Of a DNA stretch of 64,000 nucleotides, positions 8,792 through 55,357 are shown piece after piece. The first letter of the stretch is position 1; each line of letters starts with the position of its first letter. Source of the stretch: Planctomycetes bacterium MalM25 (GTDB lineage: Bacteria; Planctomycetota; Planctomycetia; Pirellulales; Lacipirellulaceae); NCBI GenBank assembly GCA_007745835.1, contig CP036424.1:3583968-3647967 (forward strand). The letters are read 5' to 3'. The position numbers and the translations under genes were made by a program. The notes under the pieces were generated by a model. It was not told the origin of the DNA. It searched no databases and saw only the letters and a program-made list of their open reading frames with translations.

Positions 8792-9403
8792 ATGGCCTAT
8801 ACCCTCCCCGAACTGCCGTACGCCTCCGACGCGCTCGAGCCGCACATCGACTCGAAGACGATGGAGATCCACCACGGCAAGCACCACAACGCCTACGTCA
8901 CCAAGCTCAACGGCGCACTCGACGGCGCCGGCGTCGCCGAGCAATCGATCGAGGACCTCTGCCGCAACCTCGACAGCGTCCCCGAGAACGTCCGCGGAGC
9001 CGTCCGCAACAACGGCGGCGGGCACGCCAACCACTCGCTCTTCTGGACCACGATGAGCGGCTCGGGCGGGGGCGCCCCGTCGGGCGACCTGGCCGCCGCC
9101 ATCGACGGCGAGCTGGGCGGCTTCGACAAGTTCAAGGAGGCCTTCTCCAACGCCGCCGCGACGCGCTTCGGCAGCGGCTGGGCTTGGCTGAGCGTCTGCA
9201 AAGAAGGCAAGCTGCACGTCAGCAGCACGCCGAACCAAGACAACCCGTACATGGAAGGGATGACGCCGATCCTGGGCCTCGACGTCTGGGAGCACGCGTA
9301 CTACCTCAACTACCAGAACCGCCGCCCCGACTACATCGCCGCGTTTTTCAACGTGGTCGATTGGGCCAAGGTCGATGAGCTGTACAAGGCGGCGAAGGGC
9401 TGA
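8792..9403 (+). CDS. sodA: Superoxide dismutase, Mn type
   Basis: 203 aa, normal length for the Fe/Mn family, which dismutates superoxide to O2 and H2O2 in the cytosol. Metal ligands are H27, H81, D164 and H168 ([13 protein letters not shown]). Two positions that separate the metal types point to Mn: Gly77 in the [13 protein letters not shown] stretch and the active-site Gln149 in STPNQD. There is no signal peptide. The ATG at 8792 was chosen because [10 protein letters not shown] is the canonical start; the frame is open 26 codons upstream. A strong terminator follows at 9433. A GGAAC...GTC arrangement at 8736-8760 could be an ECF-type promoter, but this is weak. Confidence 0.95.
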
Positions 9404-9432
9404 GCCCTCACCCCACAGCACGAATCCAACCG

Positions 9433-9467
9433 AGCGGGCGCCAGCATGCTGGCGCCCGCTTCTTTTA
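9433..9467 (+). terminator. Rho-independent terminator of sodA
   Basis: A perfect self-complementary stem AGCGGGCGCCAGCA/TGCTGGCGCCCGCT at 9433-9460 is followed at once by TTCTTTT. It starts 30 bases after the sodA stop. Confidence 0.85.
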
Positions 9468-9661
9468 TGGCCACGCCGGGCGGGCATCGGCGTTGACGCG
9501 CCGGCGGGGCGATCCCTAAGGTCCGCCGCGCTCACCGGTCCGCTGCGGCTTGTCATGCGTTTTCGCTCAACCGCCGCCACCCGGTTCGCCGAGATTGCCC
9601 AAATGGACGCGCCACGTGCGCGACCCTTACGACCCCGCTAAGCCGACGCGATCCGTTAGCC

Positions 9662-10825
9662 ATGACTCAATCGACTCCCAGGTGGCTCTCCGCCACGAGC
9701 GTGTTGACCCTCGCCGCCCTGGCGGCCAGCACCGGCTGCTCTTCCTCGGGCGGTGGATCGCGCTGGGCCTGGAACCCGTTCTCGCGGTCCGGCGGGGACG
9801 AGGAGCTGGTCGCCGAGTCCGCTCCGAAGCTGCCCAGCGACGGCGTAACGCCCGAGATCGAGGGCCTGCCGGAGGCCGCGAAGAGCGTGCCGCCCCAAGC
9901 CGCGACGCTCGCCCAGGGCGAGACGCCGCCGGCCGTCAGCGGCATCGCCCCGACCATCGAAGCGGTCGCCAGTGCGGTGCCGACGATCGACAAGCCGACC
10001 CCGACACCAAAGACGAACCCCTCGAGCTGGAGCCCCTACCCGAGCACTCCCGCCGCGAACCCACAAATGGCTGCCGCGCCGCCTGCGACCCCGGCGCCGA
10101 CCGCTGTCGCGTCCAACGCGGGCGGACCCTACGACCCCAACGGCTACAAGCCGCAGCCCCCGGCCGCCGCGAGCTCGCCCGCGGGTGACCGCTACGGATT
10201 GGGCAGCCGCTACGCGAACAGCACGCCCGCTGCGCCTGAATCGGCGGCCCCGTTCGGCGAGCTGCCGAGCACGCCGGCCGCGCCCGCGGCGTTGGGCAAT
10301 CGCTACGCGAGCACGGCGCCCGCACCGACGACGCCCCCCACCACGATGACGCCATCGACGCCGGCTACGCCTCCCGCGGGCCGCTATGGTCAGCCGGTGA
10401 GCACGCCGATCGCTTCGACTCCGGTAACGCCCCCGGCAGCTCCCGCCGCGACTGAGGCGATCACGCCTCCGCCCGCCACATCGAGTCCGTACCCGAGCAC
10501 CGGGATCGCTGGGACGACGCCGGTCGCTCCGACGACCCCCGTTAACTCAGTAGCTAGCGTCCCGCCCGCCGCTCCGGCCTATCCGGTCGCCGGCGCGACG
10601 CCGACGAGCCCCGCTTCGGTCGGCACGCTGCCGCCGGAGACTTCGGTCTACGCCTCGACGCCGATCACGCCGATCGAACCGGCCACCGCGACCGAACCGG
10701 CCGATGGCGCGCAGGGCGGGTCGGTGGTGCGGCTGACCACGCTGCCGGGCGAGTACCGTCCCGGCGGGACCAGCACGTACCCGACGACCGGCTCCGCGGC
10801 CCCGGCGCCGACCTCGCGGTATTGA
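9662..10825 (+). CDS. Pro/Thr/Ala-rich exported (lipo)protein
   Basis: 387 aa. The N-terminus has a hydrophobic segment (about 8-24) ending in AASTGC, so C26 may be lipidated, although the -3 residue is Ser rather than Leu; signal peptidase I cleavage is the alternative. The rest is almost entirely low complexity: repeated Pro, Thr, Ala and Ser with recurring NRYAS, GRYGQ and YPSTG fragments, typical of an extended envelope linker. No enzymatic domain is visible. The C-terminus ends TSRY. It converges with the next gene, whose stop is about 20 bases away. Possible role: cell-surface or periplasm-spanning structural protein (inference). Confidence 0.65.
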   Translation: MTQSTPRWLSATSVLTLAALAASTGCSSSGGGSRWAWNPFSRSGGDEELVAESAPKLPSDGVTPEIEGLPEAAKSVPPQAATLAQGETPPAVSGIAPTIEAVASAVPTIDKPTPTPKTNPSSWSPYPSTPAANPQMAAAPPATPAPTAVASNAGGPYDPNGYKPQPPAAASSPAGDRYGLGSRYANSTPAAPESAAPFGELPSTPAAPAALGNRYASTAPAPTTPPTTMTPSTPATPPAGRYGQPVSTPIASTPVTPPAAPAATEAITPPPATSSPYPSTGIAGTTPVAPTTPVNSVASVPPAAPAYPVAGATPTSPASVGTLPPETSVYASTPITPIEPATATEPADGAQGGSVVRLTTLPGEYRPGGTSTYPTTGSAAPAPTSRY

Positions 10826-10846
10826 TTCACAGCGCTCAGTCCTGGC

Positions 10847-11173
10847 TTACCAGCCCATGACCATGTTCGACTCGATCGCCTTGCGGGCCTGGTCGAGATC
10901 GACGCCCTTCTCGTTCATGTAGAGCCGGATGGCGTGCAGCTTGTCGCCCTCGGCTCGGGCGAGGCAATCACGGGCGGTCGTGCAAGGGTCGCTCGCCGCG
11001 GCGGTGATCCCGAGGGCCGCTTTGGAGATGACCCAGCTGTCGCGGGGTCGCTTGGTGAGCCGGAGGATTTCCTCGCTGGGATAGCTCTCGGCGACCACCG
11101 AGCGAGCGGCGTCGGTGTCGTCGGCCCACAGGATCATGATGTGGCCCTTGGTCTCGACTTCGTACAGTGGCAT
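10847..11173 (-). CDS. Small hypothetical protein
   Basis: 108 aa from the ATG at 11173 (MPLYEVETKGHIMILWADD); a start six codons upstream is open. It is soluble, with mixed alpha/beta predicted character: an N-terminal YEVETKGHIMILWADDTDAARSVV strand-helix unit that resembles small sensor folds, then a Cys-containing central helix (DPCTTARDCLARAEG). No family recognised. It converges with the Pro/Thr-rich gene and diverges from rpmF. Codon use is typical of the window. Confidence 0.6.
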   Translation of the reverse strand: MPLYEVETKGHIMILWADDTDAARSVVAESYPSEEILRLTKRPRDSWVISKAALGITAAASDPCTTARDCLARAEGDKLHAIRLYMNEKGVDLDQARKAIESNMVMGW

Positions 11174-11282
11174 CGCGTCTAGCTCTCCCAACCTCCGTGG
11201 CGGACCGGCCCCGGAGCGGGGCGGCCATCGAGAAAAGATCCTAGGAAACGTGCCAAGGCGTCGTCAACGCGCCGGGGAGTCG

Positions 11283-11312
11283 TTGACACCCAGGCCCCAC
11301 AGGCCGTATTTT
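11283..11312 (+). promoter_or_regulatory. Candidate sigma-70 promoter for rpmF
   Basis: TTGACA at 11283-11288 and TATTTT at 11307-11312, with an 18-base spacer. Transcription would start near 11320, giving an rpmF leader of about 135 bases. The same arrangement, TTGACC-18-TATTTT, lies upstream of acpP. Confidence 0.55.
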
Positions 11313-11454
11313 ATGGGGCTCGCGGTTGCGGCCGGCCCCTCGCTGTTGAAAGTGAGCGGTCTGACGACGCGGACCGCCTAACCGACCACCCCCTATTAGG
11401 GGGCCCGCGCAGCACCCCTGCCGCCGGGCTTCCGCCGTCCCGCTGGGCAATCCG

Positions 11455-11631
11455 ATGGCCGTCCCCAAGCGTAAGCACTCCAACTCCCGCACCGGCAAGC
11501 GTCGCTCGCACGACGGCATGAAGGCCCGTCAGCTGCAGGCCTGCCCCCGCTGCGGCACCATGAAGCCGTCGCACGTGGTGTGCGGCAACTGCGGCTTCTA
11601 CATGGGCCGGACCGTCGTCGAGACCGAGTAG
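11455..11631 (+). CDS. rpmF: 50S ribosomal protein L32
   Basis: 58 aa. The protein starts MAVPKRKHSNSRTGKRRSHDG, the standard L32 N-terminus, and carries a zinc ribbon: C30-P-R-C33 and C43-G-N-C46. L32 binds 23S rRNA near the peptidyl-transferase region. Keeping all four Cys marks it as the C+ zinc-binding form. The gene sits directly ahead of the fatty-acid synthesis genes, as in many bacteria. Stop is TAG at 11629-11631. Confidence 0.96.
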   Translation: MAVPKRKHSNSRTGKRRSHDGMKARQLQACPRCGTMKPSHVVCGNCGFYMGRTVVETE

Positions 11632-11684
11632 AGCTGGCTAACCGCGTAGAGCTGGCTAACCGCGTAGAGCCGGCCAAGCGGGTC
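11631..11684. repeat. 18-bp tandem repeat after rpmF
   Basis: Two identical copies of GAGCTGGCTAACCGCGTA (11631-11648 and 11649-11666) are followed by a diverged third (11667-11684, GAGCCGGCCAAGCGG...). It lies between the rpmF stop and fabD. The period is a multiple of three, but no gene is supported across it. Confidence 0.7.
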
Positions 11685-11783
11685 GAGTCAGCCCGCCGGG
11701 CAGACCCCCCGCCCCCGCGCCGACACTTTTTCTGGCCGTCCGGCGCCCCCGCATCCCGGCGCGCGTCCCCACCAAGGCGTCCC

Positions 11784-12692
11784 ATGGCCCAGCCCGCATT
11801 CCTGTTCCCCGGCCAAGGCGCGCAGACCGTCGGCATGGCGGCCGAGCTGGTCGCCGAAGTCCCTGCGGCCAAGGAGCTGTTCGATCGCGCGACCGAGCAA
11901 CTCGGCTTCGACCTGCTGAAGCTCTGCGCCGAGGGCCCCGCCGAGCAGCTCGACGCGACCGTCAACAGCCAGCCAGCCCTCTACGTGGCGAGCCTCGCCG
12001 CGTTGGAGCGGCTCAAGCAGGACGACCCCGCGGTCGTTGATTCGTGCATCGCCGCCGCCGGCCTCAGCCTGGGGGAGTACACGGCGCTCTGTTTCGCGGG
12101 CGCCCTGAGCTTCGAGGACGGCCTACGGGTCGTCGCCGAGCGGGGCGCCGCCATGCAGGACGCCGCCGAAGCCTCTCCCAGCGGCATGGTCAGCGTGCTC
12201 GGCCTTGAGGTCCCGCAAGTCGAGGAGCTGTGCGAACAAGCCCGAGGCGAGGAGACGCTGCAAGTCGCCAACCTGCTCTGCCCCGGCAACACGGTGGTCT
12301 CCGGCTCGAACGCGGCGTGCGAGCGGATCGCCGAGGCGGCCGAGGCGGCGGGCGCCATGAAGGTCGTCCCGCTGGCGGTGGCCGGAGCGTTCCACACGCC
12401 GCTGATGCAGCCGGCGGTCGAGCGGTTGTCGGCCGTGCTCGGCGAGGTCGAGCTGAAATCACCCCGCGTGCCGGTCGTGTCGAACGTCGACGCCAAGGCG
12501 CACAGCGACCCGGCCGAGATCCGCGATCTGCTCGTTCAGCAGGTCGTGAGCCCCGTCCAATGGGAGGCGAGCGTCCGCCAGCTCATGCAGGGGGGCGTCG
12601 ATCAGTTCTACGAGATCGGCCCCGGCCGCGTGCTGCGAGGCCTCCTGAAGCGGATCGAACGCAAGTTCCCGGCGGCCGGAGTTTCGGCCTAG
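11784..12692 (+). CDS. fabD: Malonyl-CoA:ACP transacylase
   Basis: 302 aa, usual length. Moves malonyl from CoA to the acyl carrier protein for type II fatty-acid synthesis. Diagnostic features are FLFPGQGAQ near the N-terminus, the nucleophile Ser in GLSLGEYTAL (about residue 95), Arg in the following helix (VVAERGAAMQ), and the catalytic His in GAFHTPLM (about 205), ending with EIGPGRVLRGLLKRI. The ATG at 11784 has an AAGG 6 bases upstream. The frame is open upstream through the tandem repeat, but homology starts here. fabG follows after 59 bases. Confidence 0.96.
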   Translation: MAQPAFLFPGQGAQTVGMAAELVAEVPAAKELFDRATEQLGFDLLKLCAEGPAEQLDATVNSQPALYVASLAALERLKQDDPAVVDSCIAAAGLSLGEYTALCFAGALSFEDGLRVVAERGAAMQDAAEASPSGMVSVLGLEVPQVEELCEQARGEETLQVANLLCPGNTVVSGSNAACERIAEAAEAAGAMKVVPLAVAGAFHTPLMQPAVERLSAVLGEVELKSPRVPVVSNVDAKAHSDPAEIRDLLVQQVVSPVQWEASVRQLMQGGVDQFYEIGPGRVLRGLLKRIERKFPAAGVSA

Positions 12693-12751
12693 CCCACGGA
12701 ATGGCGAGCGAGCCTTCCCCCTCCCCCACCCAACTCGAACTCCCCCGAAGC

Positions 12752-13528
12752 ATGTCCCGCATCACGGCTGATCTCTCAGGCAAGACGGCGATCGTCACCG
12801 GCGCTTCGCGCGGCATCGGCAAGGCGATCGCGTTGAAGCTGGCCGCCTCGGGCGTGAAGGTCGCCTGCGTGGCCCGCAGCGCCGACAAGCTGGCCGAGAC
12901 CGTCGGTGAGATCGAAGCCGCGGGCGGCGCCGCCGAGGCGATCCCGTGCGACGTGGCCGACGCCGACGCGGCGACGAAGCTCGTCGAAGACGTCGCCGAG
13001 CGCTGGGGAGCGGTCGACATCCTCGTGAACAACGCCGGCATCACCCGCGACACGCTGTTGCCCCGCATGTCGGACGACGACTGGGACTCGGTCATCGCCA
13101 CGAACCTGCGGAGCGTCTTCCTGTTCAGCCGGGCCGCGGCGGGCGTGATGATGCGGTCCAAGAAGGGGCGGATCATCAACATCAGCAGCACCTCGGGCCT
13201 CCGCGGCAACGCGGCCCAGTGCAACTACTCCGCGTCGAAGGCGGGCGTTATCGGCTTCACCCAGACGATCGCCCGTGAGCTGGCCAGCAAGCGGCGCCAG
13301 ATCACCGTGAACGCGATCTGCCCCGGCTTCATCGCCACGGACATGACGGCCGCCCTCAAGGAGGCCGCCGGCGAGGACGCCGTCATGGAGCGGATCAAGG
13401 CAGCCGTCCCTCTCCAGCGGCAGGGTGAAGCGGACGAGGTCGCCGACGCCGTCCTGTTCCTGGCCAGCGACTCGGCCGCCTATATCACGGGGCAAACCCT
13501 CACCGTCGACGGGGGAATGACCTGCTAG
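12752..13528 (+). CDS. fabG: 3-oxoacyl-ACP reductase
   Basis: 258 aa short-chain dehydrogenase/reductase that uses NADPH to reduce 3-oxoacyl-ACP. Visible motifs: the TGASRGIG cofactor loop, NNAG, and the Ser-Tyr-Lys triad in ISSTSG and YSASKAG, then PGFIATDMT and the C-terminal GQTLTVDGGM typical of FabG. An upstream in-frame ATG at 12701 would add 17 Pro/Ser-rich residues and is less likely. Position between fabD and acpP supports the fatty-acid role over a catabolic dehydrogenase. Confidence 0.96.
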   Translation: MSRITADLSGKTAIVTGASRGIGKAIALKLAASGVKVACVARSADKLAETVGEIEAAGGAAEAIPCDVADADAATKLVEDVAERWGAVDILVNNAGITRDTLLPRMSDDDWDSVIATNLRSVFLFSRAAAGVMMRSKKGRIINISSTSGLRGNAAQCNYSASKAGVIGFTQTIARELASKRRQITVNAICPGFIATDMTAALKEAAGEDAVMERIKAAVPLQRQGEADEVADAVLFLASDSAAYITGQTLTVDGGMTC

Positions 13529-13643
13529 GCCCGCGTCCGGCGGCCAGATGTTAGGTGGCAGATGGCGGATGATAGGAATTGCTGCGAGGCTCCCCCTCCT
13601 GCTATCGATCCCCTGCCAACAGCCCCCTCCCACCGCAGACACC

Positions 13644-13673
13644 TTGACCCGCTTTGCGGAGACCTTCTATTTT
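13644..13673 (+). promoter_or_regulatory. Candidate sigma-70 promoter for acpP
   Basis: TTGACC at 13644-13649, 18-base spacer, TATTTT at 13668-13673. It would give acpP its own transcript with a leader of about 205 bases, which fits the usual high demand for ACP. Confidence 0.5.
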
Positions 13674-13871
13674 GTGACGCTTCGCAAGCGTGAAGACAGC
13701 TCTGGCAGCGTCCGGGGCTGAGGAACGCCTGCCGAACCCGCCGCAAGGCGGACCCCAAAAGACTACCGACCCCCCGCGAGGCGCCCTAACGAAGGGGTAA
13801 GCCCCACGCCGCCGGACCGCGTTGCGACGCCCCGTCGGCCCCTCGTGGCGATTTCAAAACAACAGGCGTTT

Positions 13872-13878
13872 AAGGAGG
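13872..13878 (+). promoter_or_regulatory. Shine-Dalgarno site that decides the acpP start
   Basis: AAGGAGG at 13872-13878 abuts an ATG at 13879 but lies 6 bases before a GTG at 13885. The GTG therefore has the correct spacing. The resulting N-terminus (MASVLERV) also matches the typical ACP start. Confidence 0.8.
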
Positions 13879-13884
13879 ATGACC

Positions 13885-14127
13885 GTGGCCAGCGTGCTGG
13901 AACGTGTTACCGAGATTGTTTCCGAACAGCTCGGCGTGGATAAAGAGAAAATCACCCCGGAGACGTCGTTCGTCACGGACTTGGGCGCCGACTCGCTCGA
14001 CACGGTCGAGCTGGTGATGGAGCTCGAGGAAGAGTTCGACATCAACATCCCGGACGACGCCGCCGAGAAGATCCAGACCGTCGGTCAAGCGGTTGAGTTC
14101 ATCGAGAAGGGCGACGGCAGCGAGTGA
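13885..14127 (+). CDS. acpP: Acyl carrier protein
   Basis: 80 aa, acidic, GTG start chosen from the Shine-Dalgarno spacing. The phosphopantetheine attachment site is the Ser in [18 protein letters not shown] (about residue 37), in the usual place at the start of helix II. ACP carries the growing acyl chain between FabD, FabF and FabG products in the cytosol; holo-ACP needs a phosphopantetheinyl transferase not seen here. It has a separate candidate promoter and lies 169 bases ahead of fabF. Confidence 0.97.
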
Positions 14128-14205
14128 CCTCGCCACGCCGCTTCGGTTCGTTGAAACCGGCTCTCCTTCACCGGGGCGCCGCCAGCGACCATCATCAACC
14201 GACGC

Positions 14206-14240
14206 CGCCCGCGCGCTAGCCGCCCGCGGGCGGTTTCGTT
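14206..14240 (+). terminator. Possible terminator between acpP and fabF
   Basis: The palindrome CCGCCCGCGGGCGG at 14220-14233 is followed by TTTCGTT. The T-tract is short, so it may only attenuate. It would help set ACP above FabF. Confidence 0.4.
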
Positions 14241-14296
14241 AAACGGACCCGCCGCCGACCCGCGTCGCGGCGATCCCGGAGGAGCACAGCAGAAAG

Positions 14297-15535
14297 ATGA
14301 GTCGTCGAGTCGTTGTCACCGGACTAGGGGCCGTTACGTCGCTGGCGAGCAAGGTCGATGCGCTTTGGAGCGGCGTGCTCGAGGGCCAGAGCGGCATCCA
14401 CGAATTCCAGAACATCCGCATCGATGACATGAAAGTCCGCTTCGGCGGCGAGGTCACCGACTGGAGCACCGACGGCTACATCCCGCCGAAGGAAGCGAAG
14501 CGGGTCGAGCTGTTCACGCAGTTCGCGATGGTCGCGGCGATCGATGCGGTGAAGGACTCGGGCCTCGACTTCGAGAAGGAAGACGCCTTCCGCTGTGGCA
14601 CGGTCATCGGCTCGGGCGTCGGCGGCATCAACGAGATCGAGCTGCAGACCTCGCGTCTGGTGCTGAAGGGGCCGGACAAGGTCTCACCTTTCACGATCCC
14701 CAAGCTGATGCTCAACGCGGCCAGCGGCCACGTTTCGATCCACTACGGCCTCCGCGGTCCGAACTTCGCCACCGCCACCGCCTGCGCCAGCGCCACCAAC
14801 GCGATGGGCAGCGCCTTCAAGCTCATCCAACGCAACGCGGCCGACCTGGTCATCACCGGCGGCAGCGAGGCGGCCTGTTCGCGGATGGCGGTCGCCGGCT
14901 TCGCCAATATGAAGGCCCTCTCCGATCGGCACGACGACCCGACCGGCGCGAGCCGGCCGTTCGACGCCGACCGCGACGGCTTCGTCCTGGCCGAGGGCGC
15001 CGGCATCCTCGTCTTCGAGGAGTACGAGCACGCCAAGGCACGCGGCGCGCAGATCTACGGCGAGGTGCTCGGCTACGGAGCCAGCGGCGACGGCGGGCAC
15101 ATCACCCAGCCGAACCCCGAGGGGATCGGCGCCGGCCGCGCCATGAGCGAAGCCCTCGCCGACGCGAGCCTCGACGGCGACAAGATCGACTACATCAACG
15201 CCCACGGCACCAGCACCCCGCTGGGCGACAAGGCGGAGACCGGCGCCATCAAGCGCGTCTTCGGCGACCACGCCTACCAGCTCAGCGTCTCGAGCACCAA
15301 GAGCCAACTCGGCCACATGCTCGGCGCGAGCGGCGGCGTCGAGGCGATCCTCTCACTCAAGGCGCTGTCGACCGGCGTGATCCCGCCGACCATCAACCTC
15401 GAGACGCCCGACCCCGAGTGCGACCTCGACTACACCCCCAACACGCCGAAAGAGCGCGACGTGAATTACGCGCTGAGCAACAGCTTCGGCTTCGGCGGCC
15501 ACAACGCGTCGCTGGTGATGGGACGCGTGGAGTAA
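14297..15535 (+). CDS. fabF: 3-oxoacyl-ACP synthase II (KAS II)
   Basis: 412 aa, full length. Condenses malonyl-ACP with acyl-ACP. The catalytic triad falls at the same numbers as in the E. coli enzyme: C163 (TACASATNAMG), H303 (NAHGTSTPLGD) and H340 (KSQLGHMLGASGG). The C-terminus has the usual NSFGFGGHNASL loop. GGAGGAG lies 14 or more bases before the ATG. It closes the fabD-fabG-acpP-fabF block. It serves as the active reference for the inactive paralogue at 26812. Confidence 0.97.
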   Translation: MSRRVVVTGLGAVTSLASKVDALWSGVLEGQSGIHEFQNIRIDDMKVRFGGEVTDWSTDGYIPPKEAKRVELFTQFAMVAAIDAVKDSGLDFEKEDAFRCGTVIGSGVGGINEIELQTSRLVLKGPDKVSPFTIPKLMLNAASGHVSIHYGLRGPNFATATACASATNAMGSAFKLIQRNAADLVITGGSEAACSRMAVAGFANMKALSDRHDDPTGASRPFDADRDGFVLAEGAGILVFEEYEHAKARGAQIYGEVLGYGASGDGGHITQPNPEGIGAGRAMSEALADASLDGDKIDYINAHGTSTPLGDKAETGAIKRVFGDHAYQLSVSSTKSQLGHMLGASGGVEAILSLKALSTGVIPPTINLETPDPECDLDYTPNTPKERDVNYALSNSFGFGGHNASLVMGRVE

Positions 15536-19870: not shown

Positions 19871-19994
19871 CACGCGGCGCGCGTCGGTCTTGCCCCCGCC
19901 CCGGGGCGCTCCCTACGATCCGCGGCCTCAAGCGCGGGCGCTGCGCACAGCCGGCAGGAAGCCGCCGCCGCCCCGCCGTGCAGGAGATACGCGG

Positions 19995-21374
19995 ATGGTT
20001 CGCAGGATCGGATTCGGACTCGCGCTGTTGGCTTCGACCGCCACGGCGACGCTCGCCCAGGTCGCGCCACCCCAGCCTTCGGGAGGGGCGGCGCCCGCGC
20101 AGTGGGCGGCCGAGGCAGCCCCCGGCCAGGTGACCCCCGTCCGCTACGGCGAGCCGTCGCCGCTGCCCGGTTCGAATGCCTCGCGAGCCAGCCGCTACGA
20201 GTCGTCCGGCCAAGCGCTCAGCAACGCCGCGCCGCCGCCCGCAACGCCGACCCGCAGCGCGCCGGTCGCATCGACCACCCCGAACCCGAACACCAGCCGC
20301 GAGCCGACGCCGGTCGGCGCGCCGCGCGTCAGCAAAGCCAAAGTCACGAAGGGCTCCGGCAGCCTGCCGAACGGCGCCGGCCAGGTCTGGCGCGAATACG
20401 ACATCCGACCTTACACGCTGCGGGTCAGCACCGAACCGAAACCGCAACAACGCATCGTTGATTGGATCCTCCGCGAGACCGGCTACGAGGCGTGGCACGG
20501 CGAGACGGTCGGCATGCTCAACGCGACGAAGGACAAGCTGATCGTCTACCACACGCCCGCCATGCAGGCGATCGTGTCGGGCATCTGCGACCGCTTCGTC
20601 AACGGCCGCGGCTCGGACCGCGCGTTCTCGATGCGGATCCTCACGGTCCGCAACCCGGACTGGCGGGTCCGCGCCCTGCGGCTGATGACCCCCATCCGCG
20701 TGCAGGCCGACGGCCTCCAGGGCTGGATCATGCCGAAGGAGAACTTCGCGCTGCTGCAAGCCGAGCTCGGCCGCCGCAGCGACGTCCGCGATTACAACGC
20801 CGCCAACCAGCTGGTCCCCAACGGCCAGGCGATCGTCTTCAGCACGATGCGTCCGCGCGGCTACGTGAAGGGGATCATCCCCACAGGGCAGGCGTGGCCG
20901 GGCTACCAGCCCGAGCCGGGGCAGCTCGAAGAGGGCGCCTCGCTCGAGTTCAACCCGCTCTTGTCGATGGATCTCGAGACGGCCGAGGCGGTCGTCAAGC
21001 TCCGCATGACCCAGGTCGAGAAGATGCGCCGCGTCTCGCTCGACCTCCCCGCGCCGGCCGTGCCGGGCGGGTCGTCCAACGGGCAGCGCCTGCAAGTCGA
21101 GGTGCCGCAGGTCACGATGGCGAACCTGCACGAACGGTTCCGCTGGCCCGCCGACCAGGTGCTCGTGCTGTCGATGGGCATGGTCGCCACCCCGGCGCCC
21201 GAACAGGGCAACTCGTTCGAGCAGATGCTCCCTGACATGATGAAGAGCCCGCCGCGCGCCGACGCGTTGCTCTTCGTCGAAGCCCGCGACGCCCGCACCC
21301 CGATGACCGCCGGCGCCCCGGGAGGCGTCTCGACCGCCTCGCGCCCGGCAACGACCTTCAGCGGGCGGTATTGA
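19995..21374 (+). CDS. Exported protein, possibly secretin-related
   Basis: 459 aa. The ATG at 19995 is preceded by AGGAG 8 bases upstream. Signal peptide at about 1-21 (ALLASTATATLAQ), then a Pro/Ala/Ser-rich linker to about residue 120. The remainder is globular, starting VWREYDIRPYTLRVS and containing IVDWILRETGYEAWHGETVGML, which resembles the small repeated N-domains of secretins. Later, DQVLVLSMGMVATP and ALLFVEARDA recall secretin barrel strands. No clear gate motif. The similarity is suggestive only; an alternative is a planctomycete-specific envelope protein. It converges with the sulfatase gene 6 bases away. Confidence 0.6.
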   Translation: MVRRIGFGLALLASTATATLAQVAPPQPSGGAAPAQWAAEAAPGQVTPVRYGEPSPLPGSNASRASRYESSGQALSNAAPPPATPTRSAPVASTTPNPNTSREPTPVGAPRVSKAKVTKGSGSLPNGAGQVWREYDIRPYTLRVSTEPKPQQRIVDWILRETGYEAWHGETVGMLNATKDKLIVYHTPAMQAIVSGICDRFVNGRGSDRAFSMRILTVRNPDWRVRALRLMTPIRVQADGLQGWIMPKENFALLQAELGRRSDVRDYNAANQLVPNGQAIVFSTMRPRGYVKGIIPTGQAWPGYQPEPGQLEEGASLEFNPLLSMDLETAEAVVKLRMTQVEKMRRVSLDLPAPAVPGGSSNGQRLQVEVPQVTMANLHERFRWPADQVLVLSMGMVATPAPEQGNSFEQMLPDMMKSPPRADALLFVEARDARTPMTAGAPGGVSTASRPATTFSGRY

Positions 21375-26811: not shown

Positions 26812-28185
26812 ATGAGCAGCCAATCGAAGCCGGCCGAGCGCCGCGTTGTCATCACCGGGGTCGGGCTCGTCTCGCCCCTCGGATCCAGCCCCGCCACGTA
26901 CTCCGCCGCCCTCGCTGAGGGCCGCAGCGGCGTGACCGCCCGTGAGGGATCAACGGCCCGCCCCGCCGTGGGGGGCTTCGCGACCGAGTTCAGCGGGAAG
27001 ATCGGCGATTTCGGCGAGCTGGAAGGCCCCCAGAAGAAGGCGATCCGCAAGGGGCTCAAGGTCATGTGCCGCGAGACCCAAATGGCGGTCGCCGCCGCCC
27101 AACACGCGCTGGCCGACGCCGGCGCCGCCGAGGCGTTCGACCCGGAGCGGGTCGGGGTGGTGCTGGGGAGCGACTACATGCTCACCCTGCCCGAGGACTA
27201 CGTCGATGCGATCAAAAAGTGCCAAGCCGACGCCGACTTCGACTACGACCAGTGGGGCGGCGACGGGCTGGGCGAGATGCAGCCCCTCTGGATGCTGAAG
27301 TACCTGCCCAACATGCCGGCGAGCCACATCGCGATCTTCAACGACCTGCGGGGCCCGAACAACTCACTCACGATGCGCGAGGCGGGCGGGCTGATGGCCG
27401 TCGGCGAGGCGTTCCGCATCCTCGCCCGCGGCGACGCCGACCGGATGGTCGCCGGCGCCACGGGGACGCGGGTCCTGCCGATGCAGGCGATCCACGCGCT
27501 GCAGGAGACCGACCTGCCGGTCGCGGGTGCAGGGTTCTCCCATGAAGGGCCGACCGACGCCGACCCGGCCACGCTCAGCCGACCCTTCGACGCGGCCCGC
27601 ACCGGCATGGTGTGCGGCGAGGGCGCGGGCATGGTCGTGCTGGAGGCGCTCGACGCCGCCCAAGCGCGGGGCGCGAAGATCTACGGCGAAGTCGTCGGCT
27701 TCGGATCGAGCGTCGTCGCGAAGCCGGGCCCGGACGGCGCGTCCCTCGTCGGCGACAACCGGACCGCCATCGCGAATGCGACGAAGGTTGCCCTCCGTGA
27801 CGCAGGGATGCAACCAGCCGAGCTGGGCCACGTGAACGCCAACGGCGTCGGCGCCCCGGCGGCCGACCGCGACGAGGCGGCCGCCCTCCGCGACGCCCTC
27901 CGCGACGCGGCCGACGACACGCCCGTGGTCGCCCTGAAGAGCTACTTCGGCGAGCTCGGCGCGGGCGGCGGCGTGATCGAGCTGGCCGGCAGCCTGCTCG
28001 CCTTCGACCAAGAAGGCCCCCTCGCCGGCGCCCTGCCCCGCACGCTCAACCACGAGCAGACCGACCCCGAGTGCCCGATCCAAGTCGCCGCCCAAGCGGG
28101 CGTCCCCACGGGCGACGCGTTCCTCGCACTCAACACGACTCCGCAAGGGCAAGCCGCGGCGGTGTGCGTGAAGCGGTTCGGCTGA
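26812..28185 (+). CDS. Ketosynthase-fold protein lacking all three catalytic residues
   Basis: 457 aa. Clear beta-ketoacyl synthase fold: VVITGVGLVSPLGSS start, GVVLGSDYM, GPNNSLTMREAGGL, SRPFDAARTGMVCGEGAGMVVLE. Aligned by motif with FabF at 14297, Cys163 is E190, His303 is N344 (NANGVGA) and His340 is E381 (KSYFGELGAGGG). It therefore cannot condense acyl chains as a normal KAS. The REAGGLMA segment resembles chain-length factors (KS-beta), where Gln replaces Cys ahead of AGGLDA. A partner role with an active ketosynthase, or acyl binding, is inference. No partner ketosynthase, ACP or acyltransferase lies next to it. Confidence 0.85.
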   Translation: MSSQSKPAERRVVITGVGLVSPLGSSPATYSAALAEGRSGVTAREGSTARPAVGGFATEFSGKIGDFGELEGPQKKAIRKGLKVMCRETQMAVAAAQHALADAGAAEAFDPERVGVVLGSDYMLTLPEDYVDAIKKCQADADFDYDQWGGDGLGEMQPLWMLKYLPNMPASHIAIFNDLRGPNNSLTMREAGGLMAVGEAFRILARGDADRMVAGATGTRVLPMQAIHALQETDLPVAGAGFSHEGPTDADPATLSRPFDAARTGMVCGEGAGMVVLEALDAAQARGAKIYGEVVGFGSSVVAKPGPDGASLVGDNRTAIANATKVALRDAGMQPAELGHVNANGVGAPAADRDEAAALRDALRDAADDTPVVALKSYFGELGAGGGVIELAGSLLAFDQEGPLAGALPRTLNHEQTDPECPIQVAAQAGVPTGDAFLALNTTPQGQAAAVCVKRFG

Positions 28186-28311: not shown

Positions 28312-28767
28312 TCAGTCCCAAACATACCGCTCATCGAACTCAATCCGATGACGTTCGAGCAGCAGGCGGAACTCTTCCTTGAAGTCGCGCTCCCGATGAT
28401 GCTCCGCTTGATTAGCGATGTAGGCCTTAACGCGCGTGATCTCTGATTGGCTCACGGAGAAGGCGCCATAGCCGGCCTGCCATTGAAACTCGCCCAACTT
28501 GGGATCGCGTGCCTTGATCCAGATTGAGGTCACCCGTTTCAGTTCCTTGACCCAATCCGAAACCGTGATGGTGCGACTCATCCGCACCAACACATGCACG
28601 TGGTCTTCAACTCCGCCGGCGATCAGCGGGGCGCAGTCGAGTGTCTTGGACGCGCCGCCCAGTTGGTTATGGACTTCGGCACGCAGGCCATCGTTTGCCA
28701 AGAACGGCTGGCGGTCCTTCGTGGAGAAGACCAGATGCACCGCGATGTTGGCGAGCGATTGGGGCAA
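28312..28767 (-). CDS. REP-associated Y1 (IS200-type) transposase-like protein
   Basis: 151 aa. Has the features of the IS200/REP-associated tyrosine transposase fold: LVFSTKDRQPFL near the N-terminus, the HUH motif as DHVHVLV, and a catalytic Tyr candidate in KAYIANQAEHH. Such enzymes cleave and rejoin single-stranded DNA at hairpins. There is no tnpB partner, and the gene is bracketed by inverted REP-like arms, the usual arrangement of a RAYT and its BIME. Probably a single-copy housekeeping-like transposase that recognises the flanking REP units; activity is not proven. Confidence 0.88.
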   Translation of the reverse strand: MPQSLANIAVHLVFSTKDRQPFLANDGLRAEVHNQLGGASKTLDCAPLIAGGVEDHVHVLVRMSRTITVSDWVKELKRVTSIWIKARDPKLGEFQWQAGYGAFSVSQSEITRVKAYIANQAEHHRERDFKEEFRLLLERHRIEFDERYVWD

Positions 28768-50682: not shown

Positions 50683-53535
50683 TTAATCGTCGAAGCTCCG
50701 GGTGATCTCCTCGACCTTGTAGACCTCCAGCAGGTCGGCTTCCTTGATGTCGTTGAAGCCGGCCAGCTTGATGCCGCACTCGTAGCCCTCGCGGACCTCC
50801 TTCACGTCGTCCTTCTCGCGGCGGAGGGTGTCGATCGCGTAGTCGCCCACCACCGTGTTGTCGCGGATCACCCGGGCGCGGGCGTTGCGTTCGACGGTGC
50901 CTTGCAGCACGCGGCAACCGGCGATCACGCCGACGCGGCTGATCTTGAAGGTCATCTGCACGAGCACGCGGCCGAGTTCGACGTCGCGTTTCTCGGGGCG
51001 GAGCATGCCCTCCATCGCCAGCTTCAGCTCGTCGGCCACCTTGTAGATGATGCCGTACCGGCGGATCTCGACGCCCAGCTGGTCCGCCTTGGCGCGGGCC
51101 TTGTCGTCGGGCACCACGTTGAAGGCGATGATCACCGCGTCGGACGCGTCGGCCAGGACGACGTCGCCCTCGGTCACGCCGCCGACGCTCTTCTGCAAGA
51201 TCCGCAGCCGGACCTCGGGGTGCTCGAGCTTCGAGAGTTCCTTCTCGAGGGCCTCGATCGAGCCGCGGACGTCCGCCCGCAGGATGAGGTTGAGGGTCTG
51301 CACCTCGCCGACGCCGTCGAGGCGGTCGAACAGGTTCTCGAGGGTCGCGGCCTGGAAGCCGGTCGAGCCGAGAAACTCGGCCCGCTCCTCGTGGGCGCGG
51401 GTGTCGGCGATCTCGCGGGCCGCGGCGATGTCGTCGATCACGTAGAGCCCCTCGCCCGCGGAGGGGGCGCGGTTGAGGCCGGTCAGGTTGACCGGCACGC
51501 TGGGGCCGGCCTCATTCAGGCGGCGGCTCGGCCTAAGCGGGTCGAACATCGCCTTGACTTTGCCGTAGGCGTCGCCGCAGACGACGGTGTCGCCGACCCG
51601 CAGGGTGCCCTTCTGGACGAGCACCTTGGTCATGACGCCCCGGTCCGCGTCCTGCTGGCTCTCCAGGCAGGAACCGATCGCCGCGCGATCCGGGTTGGCG
51701 GAGTACTCGTTGAGCTCGGCGACCGTGAGGATCGTCTCGAGCAGGTCGTCCATGCCGTCGCCGGTCGTGGCGCTGGTCTTCACGACCTCGACGTCGCCGC
51801 CCCACTCGCTGGGGAGCAGTTCGTTGGCCGCCAGGTCCTGGAAGGCCTTGTTCTCGTCGGCGCCGGGCAGGTCCATCTTGTTAAGCGCGACGATGATCGG
51901 CACGCCGGCCGCCTTCGCGTGGCTGATCGCCTCTTCGGTCTGCGGCATGACGCCGTCGTCCGCCGCGACGACCAACACCACGATGTCGGTCACCTCGGCG
52001 CCGCGGGCACGCATCTCGGTGAACGCCTCGTGGCCGGGCGTGTCGACGAACGAGACCGGCCGGCCATCGTTCTCGAGCTGGTAGGCGCGGATGTGCTGCG
52101 TGATGCCGCCGTCTTCGCGGCTGGCGACGTCGATCCCGATCAGACGATCGAGGAGCGACGTCTTACCGTGGTCGACGTGGCCTAGGAACGTCACCACCGG
52201 CGCCCGTGGCTTGAGCGAATCCTCGGGATCTTCGAGCTCGTCCAGCGCGGTGAGCAGCTTGTCTTCGAGCGATTCGGGCTGCAGGAACTCGATCTCGGTG
52301 CCCAGGTCCGCGGCGACCAGCTCGGTGAGCTCCGGGTCCATTTGGGCGTTGATGTTGGCCATCACGCCCTCCTCCATCAGGATGCGGAGGATCTGCACCG
52401 CGGGCACGCCCGCCGCTTCGGAGAGCTCTTTCACCGTGCAGGGCAGCTGGACCTGGATGGCGTCCTTACGCGGCGCGGCCGTGTTGATGCCGGACTTCTT
52501 GCGGCGGCCCATCATCCGGCGGGGCCGGAAACCGGCCCGACCGCCGGAGCGATTGCGGTTGATCTGGCGGTGCTCGCGGCCACCGAGCATCGGCACGCCC
52601 GATTTGCCGCGTCCCGTCTTGGCAGCGGCGTCCTCTTTCTCCTTGAGCTTGGCCGCTTCGAGCGATCGCTCGGCCCGGCGGAGCTGGTCGCCGAGCGGGC
52701 GGGCGCCCGCCTTGCCGCCGCCGAGAACGTCGGCGGGCAGCTTCATGTCGGGCTTCTGCGCCTTGGCTTCGGCCTTGGCCTTCGGCTTGGGGGCTTCTTT
52801 CTTGGGCTGATTCTGAGCCGGGATGGCGGCCAGCTTGACCACGGGACGAGGCTTGGCGCCGTCGCCGGGCTTTTTCTTGCCACCCTGACCGGCGCCCTGA
52901 CCGCCGCCGATCACGGGCATCTTGCTGCCACGACCACGGCCCATCATCTGGGAAAGCGGCCCGGGCCGCGCCAGCTCTTCCTTGCGAGTCTCTTCCGGCT
53001 CGGCGGGCGCCGCCTCCTCAGCCGGAGCGGCCTCGGCAGCCGAAGCCGCCTCGTCAGTCGAAGCGGCCTCGTCAGTCGAAGCGGGAGCCTCGGCCTCCGC
53101 GAGGGTGGCCGCCTCGGCGGGAGCCTCGGGTGGGGCCGCCGGCTGCTCTTCGGATGCGGGGGCTTCGGTCGGGGCGTCGGCGCTGGCGGGGGCGTCGTCG
53201 TCGGTGATGACCTCGGGCGGGCTCACCAGTTCCGACTCGCGCCGCGTGGCGGAGCGGCCCGCCTTGGGGGCCTGGATGGTGCGCATCTTGCCACCCCGAT
53301 TATCGCCGGAGGGGCGTTGCATCGGGGGGGGCGAGGGCTTGGACGGGGCGGCCGTCGCGGTGGCCGTCCCCCCGCTGCCTCCGCTCAGATACTCCTTAAC
53401 CTTCGCGACTTCGTCGTCGTTAAGGCTGGCCAAAGCCGATCCCTTGTCGGGGACCCCGGCGCGTGTGCAGACATCGACCAGCTCCTTGCTGTCGACGTCA
53501 AGTTCCTTCGCCAGAGCGTAGATGCGGACCGCCAA
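50683..53535 (-). CDS. infB: Translation initiation factor IF-2
   Basis: 950 aa. GTPase that positions initiator tRNA on the 30S subunit and promotes subunit joining. The start is TTG (53535-53533), supported because [21 protein letters not shown] is the canonical IF-2 N-terminal domain. The next 350 residues are Ala/Glu/Pro-rich linker with basic patches. The G domain has GHVDHGKT near residue 450, DTPGHE and NKMD. Domains II-IV follow and end in the IF-2 C-terminal domain. No in-frame ATG or GTG precedes the TTG. Confidence 0.97.
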
Positions 53536-53941
53536 AGTCTCGTTTACCTCGTTAAACCGTCGTTGCGCCGCTCGCGTCGCGCCCTGGCGTCGGCATTCCT
53601 GTCGCCAAGGCGGGCCCGACTGCGGCGGGATTCGAGCCAGCTTGAGCCTTCGACAAGGCGGAAACTAGCGGACGGTACGCGACGCCCCGCCGGCAAACTG
53701 ATCGTCAGTTCAACGGCTCGGACGCTTCCGATTGAGGATCACGAGACCATTCCGCACGCCTCCGGTCGAAGGTTTGGTTCTGCCGGGCGCACCCGTCAGA
53801 ACCGGTAAGTCGTTCGTAGACCCAATAGTATGCCATCCTGCTCCGCCGCATGGCGAGGGGGGGAGGGCAGAAAACCGGCAAAACCGGGCCGTCGGACGCG
53901 TCGTTCGCGTCCCACATAACCCCGGCGGGACCGGAGGGGCC
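53536..53941 (-). other. Long nusA-infB spacer
   Basis: 406 bases between nusA and infB, where ylxR or an L7Ae-like gene often sits. Neither is seen. The 70-codon minus-strand frame at 53705-53917 starts with no supporting motif and is not called. GC-rich; no promoter pair identified. Confidence 0.5.
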
Positions 53942-55357
53942 TCAGGCGGGCGGGTTCGCCCCCTCCTCTTCTTCAGCAGGAGCGGCCGGTCCCTCGGGGT
54001 CGGCCGGGGCCTCCTCCTGGGCAGGGGTCGCTTCGCCTGCCGGAGCCTCCTCGCCGGCGGCCTCCTCGCCAGGGGTTTCGGCCCCCTCGGCGGGGGCCTC
54101 CTCAGGCGAAGCCTCAGCGGCGGGAGCGGCGGCCGCCTCGGCGGCGGCTTGCAGCTCGGCCAGCTTGTCCTGTTCGCGTTTCGCTCGGCGGGCGGCGGCG
54201 GCGGCGGCCTCGGCCTCTTCGGCGCGGTTCTCCGCCTGCTCGACGATGTGGTCGGCCTGCTCCTGGGTCAGCTCGCCCATGGTCATCAGGTCGTCCGGCT
54301 CGATGATCGAGAGGTCGTCGTAGCTCAGGAAGCCCTCCTCGACCAGCTTCTCGGCGACCGACATCTCGAGGCCGTCGATCGTGCTGAAGCCCTCGATCGC
54401 CCGGTCGATGTTCTCGGCCAGCTCCTCCTGGGTCATGATCTCGATGTCCCAGCCGGAGAGCTTGCTCGCCAACCGGACGTTCTGACCCCGCCGGCCGATG
54501 GCGAGGCTGAGGTTGTCCTCCTGCACCAGCGCGATCGCGCGGCCCAGCATCTTGCAGAGGATGACCTGATCGACTTCGGCGGGCTGCAGGGCGTTGGGGA
54601 TCAGGATCTCGAGGTCGTCGTCCCAGCGGACGATGTCGATCCGCTCGCCGGAGAGCTCATCGACGATGTTCTTGATCCGGTTGCCCCGGACACCGACGCA
54701 CGCGCCGACGCAGTCGACACGCGAGTCGCTGCTGATGACGGCCACCTTCGAGCGGTAGCCCGGCTCGCGCGACATGGCGCGGATCTCGATCACGCCGTCG
54801 GCGATCTCCGGGATCTCCTGCTCGAAGAGCCGCTGCACGAGGGCGGGCATCTTGCGGCTGAGGATCACCTTCACCCGGCTGCCCGCCTTGCGGGCCTCGT
54901 AGACGGTGCATCGCACACGCTCGTTGACGTGGTGCGACTCGCCCGGGATCTGCTCGCTGCGGGGCAGCAGGGCCTCGACGTTCGACAGGGCGACGGTCGC
55001 CGCGGCGCCCTCGTTGCGGTGGATCACGCCGGAGACCATCTGGCCGACCAGCTCGTTGTACTCGTCGTACAGCGCGTCCCGCTCCGCCTCGCGGATCTTC
55101 TGGATCATCACCTGCTTGGCGGTCTGGGCGCCGATGCGGCCGACGACCTCCTCGGAGTCGAGCTTCTCGCCGTCGCAGGTGGCGTCGACCTCGCCCGTCT
55201 GGCGGTCGATCTGACAGGTGATCTCGGCCTCTTCGCCGTAGTACTTCGCCAGGGCCGAAATGAGGGCCGCCTCGATCCCCTCGAAAACGATCTCTTGATC
55301 GATGTTCTTGTCGCGGTGGATCGCGTCCACGATCCGGAGGATTTCAGCGGCGTTCAT
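53942..55357 (-). CDS. nusA: Transcription termination/antitermination factor NusA
   Basis: 471 aa. Binds RNA polymerase and nascent RNA. The N-terminal domain ([32 protein letters not shown]), an S1 domain (about 135-200), and KH domains with [22 protein letters not shown] and [20 protein letters not shown] are all present. A helix-hairpin-type segment (about 330-385) replaces the full acidic repeats, and the last 80 residues are an Ala/Glu/Pro-rich tail. GGGGAG lies 9 bases upstream of the ATG. rimP, usually upstream, is absent here. Confidence 0.96.

Follow-up and report, generated by a model that had tools for sequence, protein, structure and literature searches.

The window (the whole stretch of 64,000 nucleotides analysed here) was found to contain an open frame at positions 26812-28185 of the forward strand, which encodes a 457-residue ketosynthase (KS)-like protein carrying an acidic residue at the catalytic cysteine site (clade A, hereafter A). 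The gene order in the window was fabD-fabG-acpP-fabF, other genes, the 19890-21374 gene, a 5 kb block on the opposite strand composed of sulfatase-type genes and an oxidoreductase, the A gene and an IS200-like Y1 transposase gene (Table 1). The fabD-fabG-acpP-fabF genes were located on the same strand as A and ended 11 kb upstream of it. The transposase gene may mark a rearrangement, and the 19890-21374 product is a possible functional neighbour of the A gene. A promoter scan around 26812-28185 returned none, the chance expectation being 0.1.

Table 1. Features of the window and residue positions of the A protein. Equivalent FabF residues are given where aligned; counts out of 121 refer to distinct A-type proteins.
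Feature	Positions	Strand	Evidence or remark
fabD, 302 aa	11784..12692	+	TIGR00128 311.7 bits, over cutoff; start chosen by hand
fabG, 258 aa	12752..13528	+	TIGR01830 307.2 bits, over cutoff; start chosen by hand
acpP, 82 aa	13879..14127	+	TIGR00517 119.8 bits, over cutoff; start chosen by hand
fabF, 412 aa, Cys-His-His	14297..15535	+	TIGR03150 602.3 bits, cutoff 493.75
Protein without Pfam match	19890..21374	+	Homologue less than 1 kb upstream of A in 49/69 loci
A gene, 457 aa	26812..28185	+	Acid-site ketosynthase-like protein
K80 to K83 codons, at FabF Lys65 to Arg68	27049..27060	+	Basic pair in 121/121
Y122 codon, at FabF Ile108	27175..27177	+	Tyr in 103/121
E190 codon, at FabF Cys163	27379..27381	+	Alignment; Glu in 118, Asp in 3 of 121
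N344 codon, at FabF His303	27841..27843	+	Alignment; His in 107/121
E381 codon, at FabF His340	27952..27954	+	Alignment; Asn in 117/121
IS200-like Y1 transposase	28312..28767	-	Directly downstream of A; outside the system
nusA	53942..55357	-	TIGR01953 over cutoff; displaced here

The infB and nusA genes (50683-55357, minus strand) were situated 22-27 kb from A on the other strand. Both are found close downstream in many relatives, and nusA lay within 4 kb downstream of A in 38 of the 58 loci with enough flank. Their position in the window is a rearrangement in the MalM25 genome.

The A protein matched both Pfam ketosynthase domains, and its best solved relatives were KAS II/FabF enzymes. The score against the FabF/KAS II equivalog model TIGR03150 was 220.1 bits, which is below the cutoff of 493.75. 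An AlphaFold2 model of mean pLDDT 91.8 and pTM 0.91, with low-confidence parts mainly at residues ~150-170 and 240-250, confirmed the KAS II fold; the highest structural match was the FabF structure 1j3n_A (Z 56.9), and the actinorhodin KS chain 1tqy_A scored Z 55.2. Comparison with three same-genus orthologues showed that third codon positions carried most changes, and dN values of 0.20-0.26 against dS values of 0.67-0.93 indicated purifying selection. The intact frame, the kept fold and the selection suggested by the sequence-only reading were thus all borne out. The same reading had named a cysteine in close relatives as a sign of recent decay. No cysteine was present at the site in any of 121 orthologue-type proteins and dN was well below dS, hence recent decay was rejected.

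The alignment to solved KAS II enzymes and to the Cys-His-His FabF of the window agreed with the previous assignment of E190, N344 and E381 to the FabF positions Cys163, His303 and His340. The variation at these sites was assessed in 121 distinct A-type proteins, i.e. open frames of 330-700 aa, identical sequences being counted once, whose A-profile score exceeded 450 bits and was above their B-profile score. Alignment A3 took in 74 of the 75 candidate loci, L113 being omitted. The first histidine site was occupied by His (107), Asn (4), Arg (3), Tyr (2), Phe (2), Asp (2) and Gln (1), and the second by Asn (117), Ser (2), Ala (1) and Glu (1). The equivalent of Lys335 was a lysine in every protein. 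The commonest state was therefore Glu, usually His, and Asn, and the full Glu-Asn-Glu triad, which had been put forward as a signature, was encountered in 1/121 proteins only, the window's own. Four copies from the genus of the window read E-N-E, E-D-A, E-D-S and E-H-N. Because the glutamate was steady and the other two sites varied, it was concluded that selection holds the glutamate and that the triad reflects local drift of the other two positions. The description of A as a chain-length-factor-like paralogue that lacks the condensing cysteine and has Glu in place of the usual Gln was upheld; three members of the set have Asp there.

Equivalents of Cys163, Asp265, His340 and Phe400 were found in no clade A protein, and the Thr270 site was a gap. 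The equivalents of Cys163, His303, His340, Asp265, Thr270 and Phe400 were all present in 38/38 active KS-alpha proteins and in 51-54 of 54 FabF proteins, a group that takes in FabF of other classes. Since A has lost three features of FabF, namely the cysteine nucleophile, Asp265 of loop 2 and the GFG gate residues, no condensation would be expected from it. The position of Y122 corresponds to Ile108, which lines the acyl pocket of FabF; a role of this tyrosine in chain length is a guess drawn from work on FabF.

A second acid-site paralogue (B) was recognized in the relatives. Its 24 members without cysteine, a count that excludes four Cys-bearing rows (L100-L103), L104 having scored just below the 420-bit limit, had Asp (14), Glu (9) or Ser (1) at the cysteine site; Asp265 was kept in 4/24 and the Thr270 site was a gap. 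The serine occurred in L072 (9648-10913), the only aligned B protein of this kind, where both histidines were kept.

Orthologues of A (E < 1e-100) were detected in 56 of 59 related genomes, and the genomes without a match (G026, G031, G033) were 58-82% complete. B was assigned by E-value band in 55/59 relatives and was not seen in G011, G024, G043 and G050. An active KS-alpha with the Cys-His-His triad (C) was found in 56/59 and not in G024, G033 and G045; it was partial in G010. Genome G045 (95% complete, 430 contigs) had matches to A and B and none to C; a FabF match was missing there as well, so gaps in this assembly are possible. Each of the 16 listed genomes of the same class from another family gave two matches with E < 1e-120, which fell in the A and the B range respectively. 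At 1e-70 a match was obtained in 190/294 genomes of the phylum, a threshold which also admits FabF. Plasmid relatives were distant: identity did not exceed 34.2% among the best 40 of 766 obtained with the window protein or the best 30 of 949 obtained with a tandem beta, and the named ones belonged to the FabF or KS family.

FabH scored over the curated cutoff in 53/59 relatives, including the genome of the window, and was not found over the cutoff in G010, G022, G026, G044, G045 and G053. This distribution gave no support to A as a substitute for missing FabH.

The sequence-only reading had stated that no ACP or ketosynthase is adjacent to A. That is literally true, as the nearest ones in the window are AcpP and FabF, 11 kb off. 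The cluster at 11784-15535 nevertheless shares the strand of A. Of the 80 named loci, 56 had at least 6 kb of upstream flank, and in 27/56 a fabF gene of the same orientation was located no more than 6.5 kb upstream of A. One locus (L151) missed this linkage test only through an over-extended start of A, and in L131 FabF was upstream on the opposite strand. The gap between fabF and A was as short as 6 bases in L184 (Rhodopirellula MAG) and 21 bases in L183, and it was 128 and 434 bases in the same-class loci L212 and L200. Among 20 B loci, drawn from 18 genomes, 13 had a desaturase gene next to B, examples being the fatty acid desaturases of L036 (10249-11382) and L061 (10676-12220).

In other classes, homologues of A adjoin an active KS, in several loci together with an ACP. 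Fourteen fetched loci (L188-L198, L205, L206, L220) contained a homologue of A next to an active Cys-His-His KS; these loci were chosen for paired matches and give no measure of how common the pair is. The cysteine site of the homologue, the tandem beta, was Glu in 11, Asp in 1, Gln in 1 and Asn in 1, and the spacing of the two genes ranged from 1 shared base (L190) to 600 bases apart, larger overlaps being an artefact of taking the first start codon in the open frames. A dehydratase, an ACP and a second dehydratase preceded the tandem KS genes in L188, L189, L190, L193 and L205, with FabG also in L188 and L205. In L203, close to a contig end, a homologue of A accompanied an ACP and dehydratases, and no alpha was seen beside it. 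Tandem betas without cysteine kept Phe400 in 6/15, Gly401 in 15/15 and Thr270 in 2/15. Both genes of the pair encoded Cys-His-His in the planctomycete family f34 (L100, L101, L103, L104), whose Cys-bearing beta is possibly the state before the loss of cysteine. The tandem genes of L188 were followed at 9084-13128 by genes for a GH3-family protein, for a methyltransferase and for an iron-sulfur protein of the DUF362 family, and a DUF362 gene also followed in L205 (7011-8135).

Within the Planctomycetia the active KS belonged to a dehydratase-ACP-dehydratase operon, and no beta gene accompanied it there (L037; L213, with FabG in addition). The KS-alpha of the MalM25 genome, C, was located in such a dehydratase-ACP-dehydratase-KS operon (G000:C1:30786-32054), far from A.

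A quick IQ-TREE analysis of 102 rows was performed, with SH-aLRT support and no bootstrap. One clade (SH-aLRT 98) united the f34 beta with the acid-site proteins; its first branch was the Cys-bearing f34 pair, and none of the remaining 60 rows (SH-aLRT 99) had a cysteine. Nearest to this clade were the alpha proteins and two Streptomyces KS (SH-aLRT 82; 91 together with the beta clade). The Cys state required one change when Streptomyces and one outlier were left out and two changes with all rows. Same-class second copies (L207, L209-L211) were placed beside A (SH-aLRT 86) and apart from the B proteins of Pirellulales, so that B may comprise more than one set of orthologues. The descent of A from actinobacterial chain-length factors was not supported by the tree: the two annotated Streptomyces factors, with Gln at the cysteine site, were placed elsewhere, a placement that rests on these two, the 1tqy sequences being outside the tree.

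Structures of AcpP-FabF have shown that Lys65, Arg68 and Lys69 touch the ACP and, in the crosslinked complex, that the non-crosslinked KS monomer gives most of the contacts; crosslinking was reduced by K65E and K65A/K69A (the accessible part of PMC7138838). The docking motif was scored as [KR]xx[KR] at FabF 63-71. It was present in A (121/121), B (24/24), tandem betas (17/17, two of them still with Cys) and FabF (53/54), and in none of the active alphas, either orphan (0/22) or tandem (0/16). The beta side therefore totalled 162/162 and the sister active ketosynthases 0/38, counts that overstate the statistics because related sequences are not independent. The median net charge of segment 61-73 was +4 for A, +3 for B, +4 for tandem betas, +2 for FabF and -1 for both orphan and tandem alphas. 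Thus the alphas kept catalysis and had no motif, the A clade kept the motif and lost the catalytic and gating residues, and FabF kept both.

The pattern was less clear at single positions. The alignment near FabF 65-70 was uncertain in the alphas, and column 68 alone had K or R in 10/22 orphan alphas. FabF was basic at 65, 68, 69, 128 and 206 in 51-54/54 and at 127 in only 2/54; Lys69 was lost in A and B, and the Arg206 site was basic in 2/121 A and in no B or alpha protein. The f34 beta has both Cys and the motif and its alpha is already without the motif; the loss of docking in the alpha may therefore have come first and that of cysteine in the beta later.

Two known aromatic KS-alpha/chain-length-factor pairs of Streptomyces served as a control, and neither subunit contained the motif. 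Only position 65 followed the reciprocal pattern, with an arginine in the factor and either Gln or Asp in the KS-alpha, and position 68 was opposite; the motif was therefore not borne out in these pairs as a general rule for KS/factor pairs. In two other Streptomyces KS pairs it was present in the Ala-site subunit (2/2) and in one of the two active subunits. The Streptomyces plasmid clusters L226 (5531-8971) and L229 (2850-6272) had the order fabD-ACP-KR-DH-KS-DH-KS, and their second KS, with Ala at the cysteine site and Arg at 65 and 68, is a possible independent look-alike.

Based on these comparisons, we proposed that A is probably a subunit of the KS-beta or chain-length-factor type, for which C would be the likeliest partner. 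In the heterodimer envisaged for A, the alpha subunit would be an active Cys-His-His ketosynthase and would do the condensing. The basic surface of A may dock the ACP for the active site of the partner, and A may also wall the acyl tunnel from across the dimer and in this way influence the choice of chain. C keeps catalysis and has no docking motif, and FabF of the neighbouring fatty-acid cluster would be the second candidate. The residue pattern pointed to C and the gene order in the MalM25 genome to FabF; C was placed first. One alpha may also be shared by two betas, A and the mostly desaturase-linked B.

More tentatively, and with a clear risk of being wrong, essential lipid synthesis in the Planctomycetia as a whole might run on such a split ketosynthase. 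An alpha without a docking surface would then work with exchangeable betas, A in bulk fatty-acid synthesis and B in desaturation, which would decide the chain, and the Glu or Asp would have a positive role.

The same beta role with FabF of the adjacent cluster as the partner, the candidate named in the sequence-only reading, so that a FabF-A heterodimer carries out primary fatty-acid elongation, was regarded as a rather unlikely alternative. It draws on the upstream fabF genes in 27/56 loci and on the gaps of 6 to 434 bases described above. On the other hand, FabF keeps catalysis (53-54/54) together with the docking residues and needs no partner, the gene in tandem with the betas of other classes belongs to the alpha clade, and 29/56 loci fail the linkage test. 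Still less probable was the view of A as a stand-alone homodimer that binds acyl-ACP and senses or regulates lipid synthesis. Such a role had been suggested by the sequence-only reading from the missing neighbours, and the invariant docking motif of A (121/121) and its distance from KS-alpha in the MalM25 genome would suit it. The heterodimer, however, better explains both the tandem homologues next to an active KS and the absence of the motif from the alpha clade, and the stand-alone role was not upheld.

Replacement of the active-site cysteine is also the hallmark of KSQ domains. A might in principle be a malonyl-ACP decarboxylase of this type that primes synthesis, with Glu replacing Gln, and the Lys335 equivalent in 121/121 and His303 in 107/121 proteins are consistent with that. 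Yet His340 was replaced in 121/121, both histidines are gone in the window protein and in two same-genus copies, and the residue at the cysteine site of the window protein is Glu and not Gln. Both histidines are indispensable for decarboxylation according to the accessible part of PMC2649909. Moreover, with FabH over the cutoff in most relatives and in the genome of the window, priming does not need A there, and we considered this role as improbable as the stand-alone one. A heterodimeric beta subunit thus remained the preferred reading.

The change of cysteine to an acid was already known. Two FabF paralogues of Rhodopirellula baltica with Cys163 replaced by Asp and Glu were described in 2009, with no function or partner given in the accessible part of the paper (PMC2649909). 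According to Table 2 of that paper, RB4527 (NP_866153) has Glu163/His298/Asn333, which is the signature of A, and RB3714 (NP_865682) has Asp163/His298/His333, an acid site like that of B; both are likened by signature only, and the third site of RB3714 is His where most B proteins have Asn. In the open-access literature searched (supplements lay outside the search), there was no report that the Glu/Asp change is near-universal in Pirellulales, none of the pairing pattern or of two betas side by side in one genome, and no description of a planctomycete fatty-acid KS-beta. Planctomycetes have been listed among the phyla with KS-CLF hits (PMC10132072, accessible part).

Several known systems resemble the proposed pair. 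In the actinorhodin-type KS/factor (1tqy) and for the Streptomyces factors L227 and L228, a subunit that has the KS fold but no Cys accompanies an active KS, as in the proposed pair; L227 and L228 differ in the Gln at the cysteine site, tandem genes in aromatic polyketide clusters, a separate place in the tree and the lack of [KR]xx[KR]. The AmcF-AmcG heterodimer of cispentacin synthesis, likened by its description in the accessible part of PMC10698177, joins an active KS with a partner without functional motifs, as proposed for A, but AmcG is described as a factor for cyclisation in a specialised pathway and not as a chain-length factor. Kuste3605 and Kuste3606 of Kuenenia, a canonical and a non-canonical FabF encoded with ACP and FabZ genes in the cluster kuste3603-3608, were likewise compared by description (PMC2649909 and PMC4790861, accessible parts). 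Kuste3606 differs from A, having Val163, Asn298 and Glu333 as printed, and a different substrate and function were suggested for the odd Kuenenia paralogues (PMC2649909). In the rhizobial cluster acpXL-fabZXL-fabF2XL-fabF1XL, genes for an ACP, a dehydratase and two KS enzymes follow one another and serve a single special acyl chain, with no claim of a beta subunit in the accessible part of PMC11901934. Essentiality is indicated only indirectly: in Planctopirus limnophila (Planctomycetales), five KS-type proteins that make up one paralogue group have been reported as all essential (PMC10632474).

A is near-universal in a bacterial order, is under purifying selection and often lies beside the primary fatty-acid genes. 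To our knowledge, the chain-length factors described so far act in secondary metabolism. If the proposed role is true, a heteromeric ketosynthase, with the halves of the ACP site split between its subunits, can be required for the synthesis of membrane lipids. It would give a function to the Rhodopirellula oddity noted in 2009 and could help to explain the essential group of five ketosynthases in Planctopirus. It would also provide a residue rule for finding other pairs, namely a subunit with Cys and without KxxK together with one with KxxK and without Cys.
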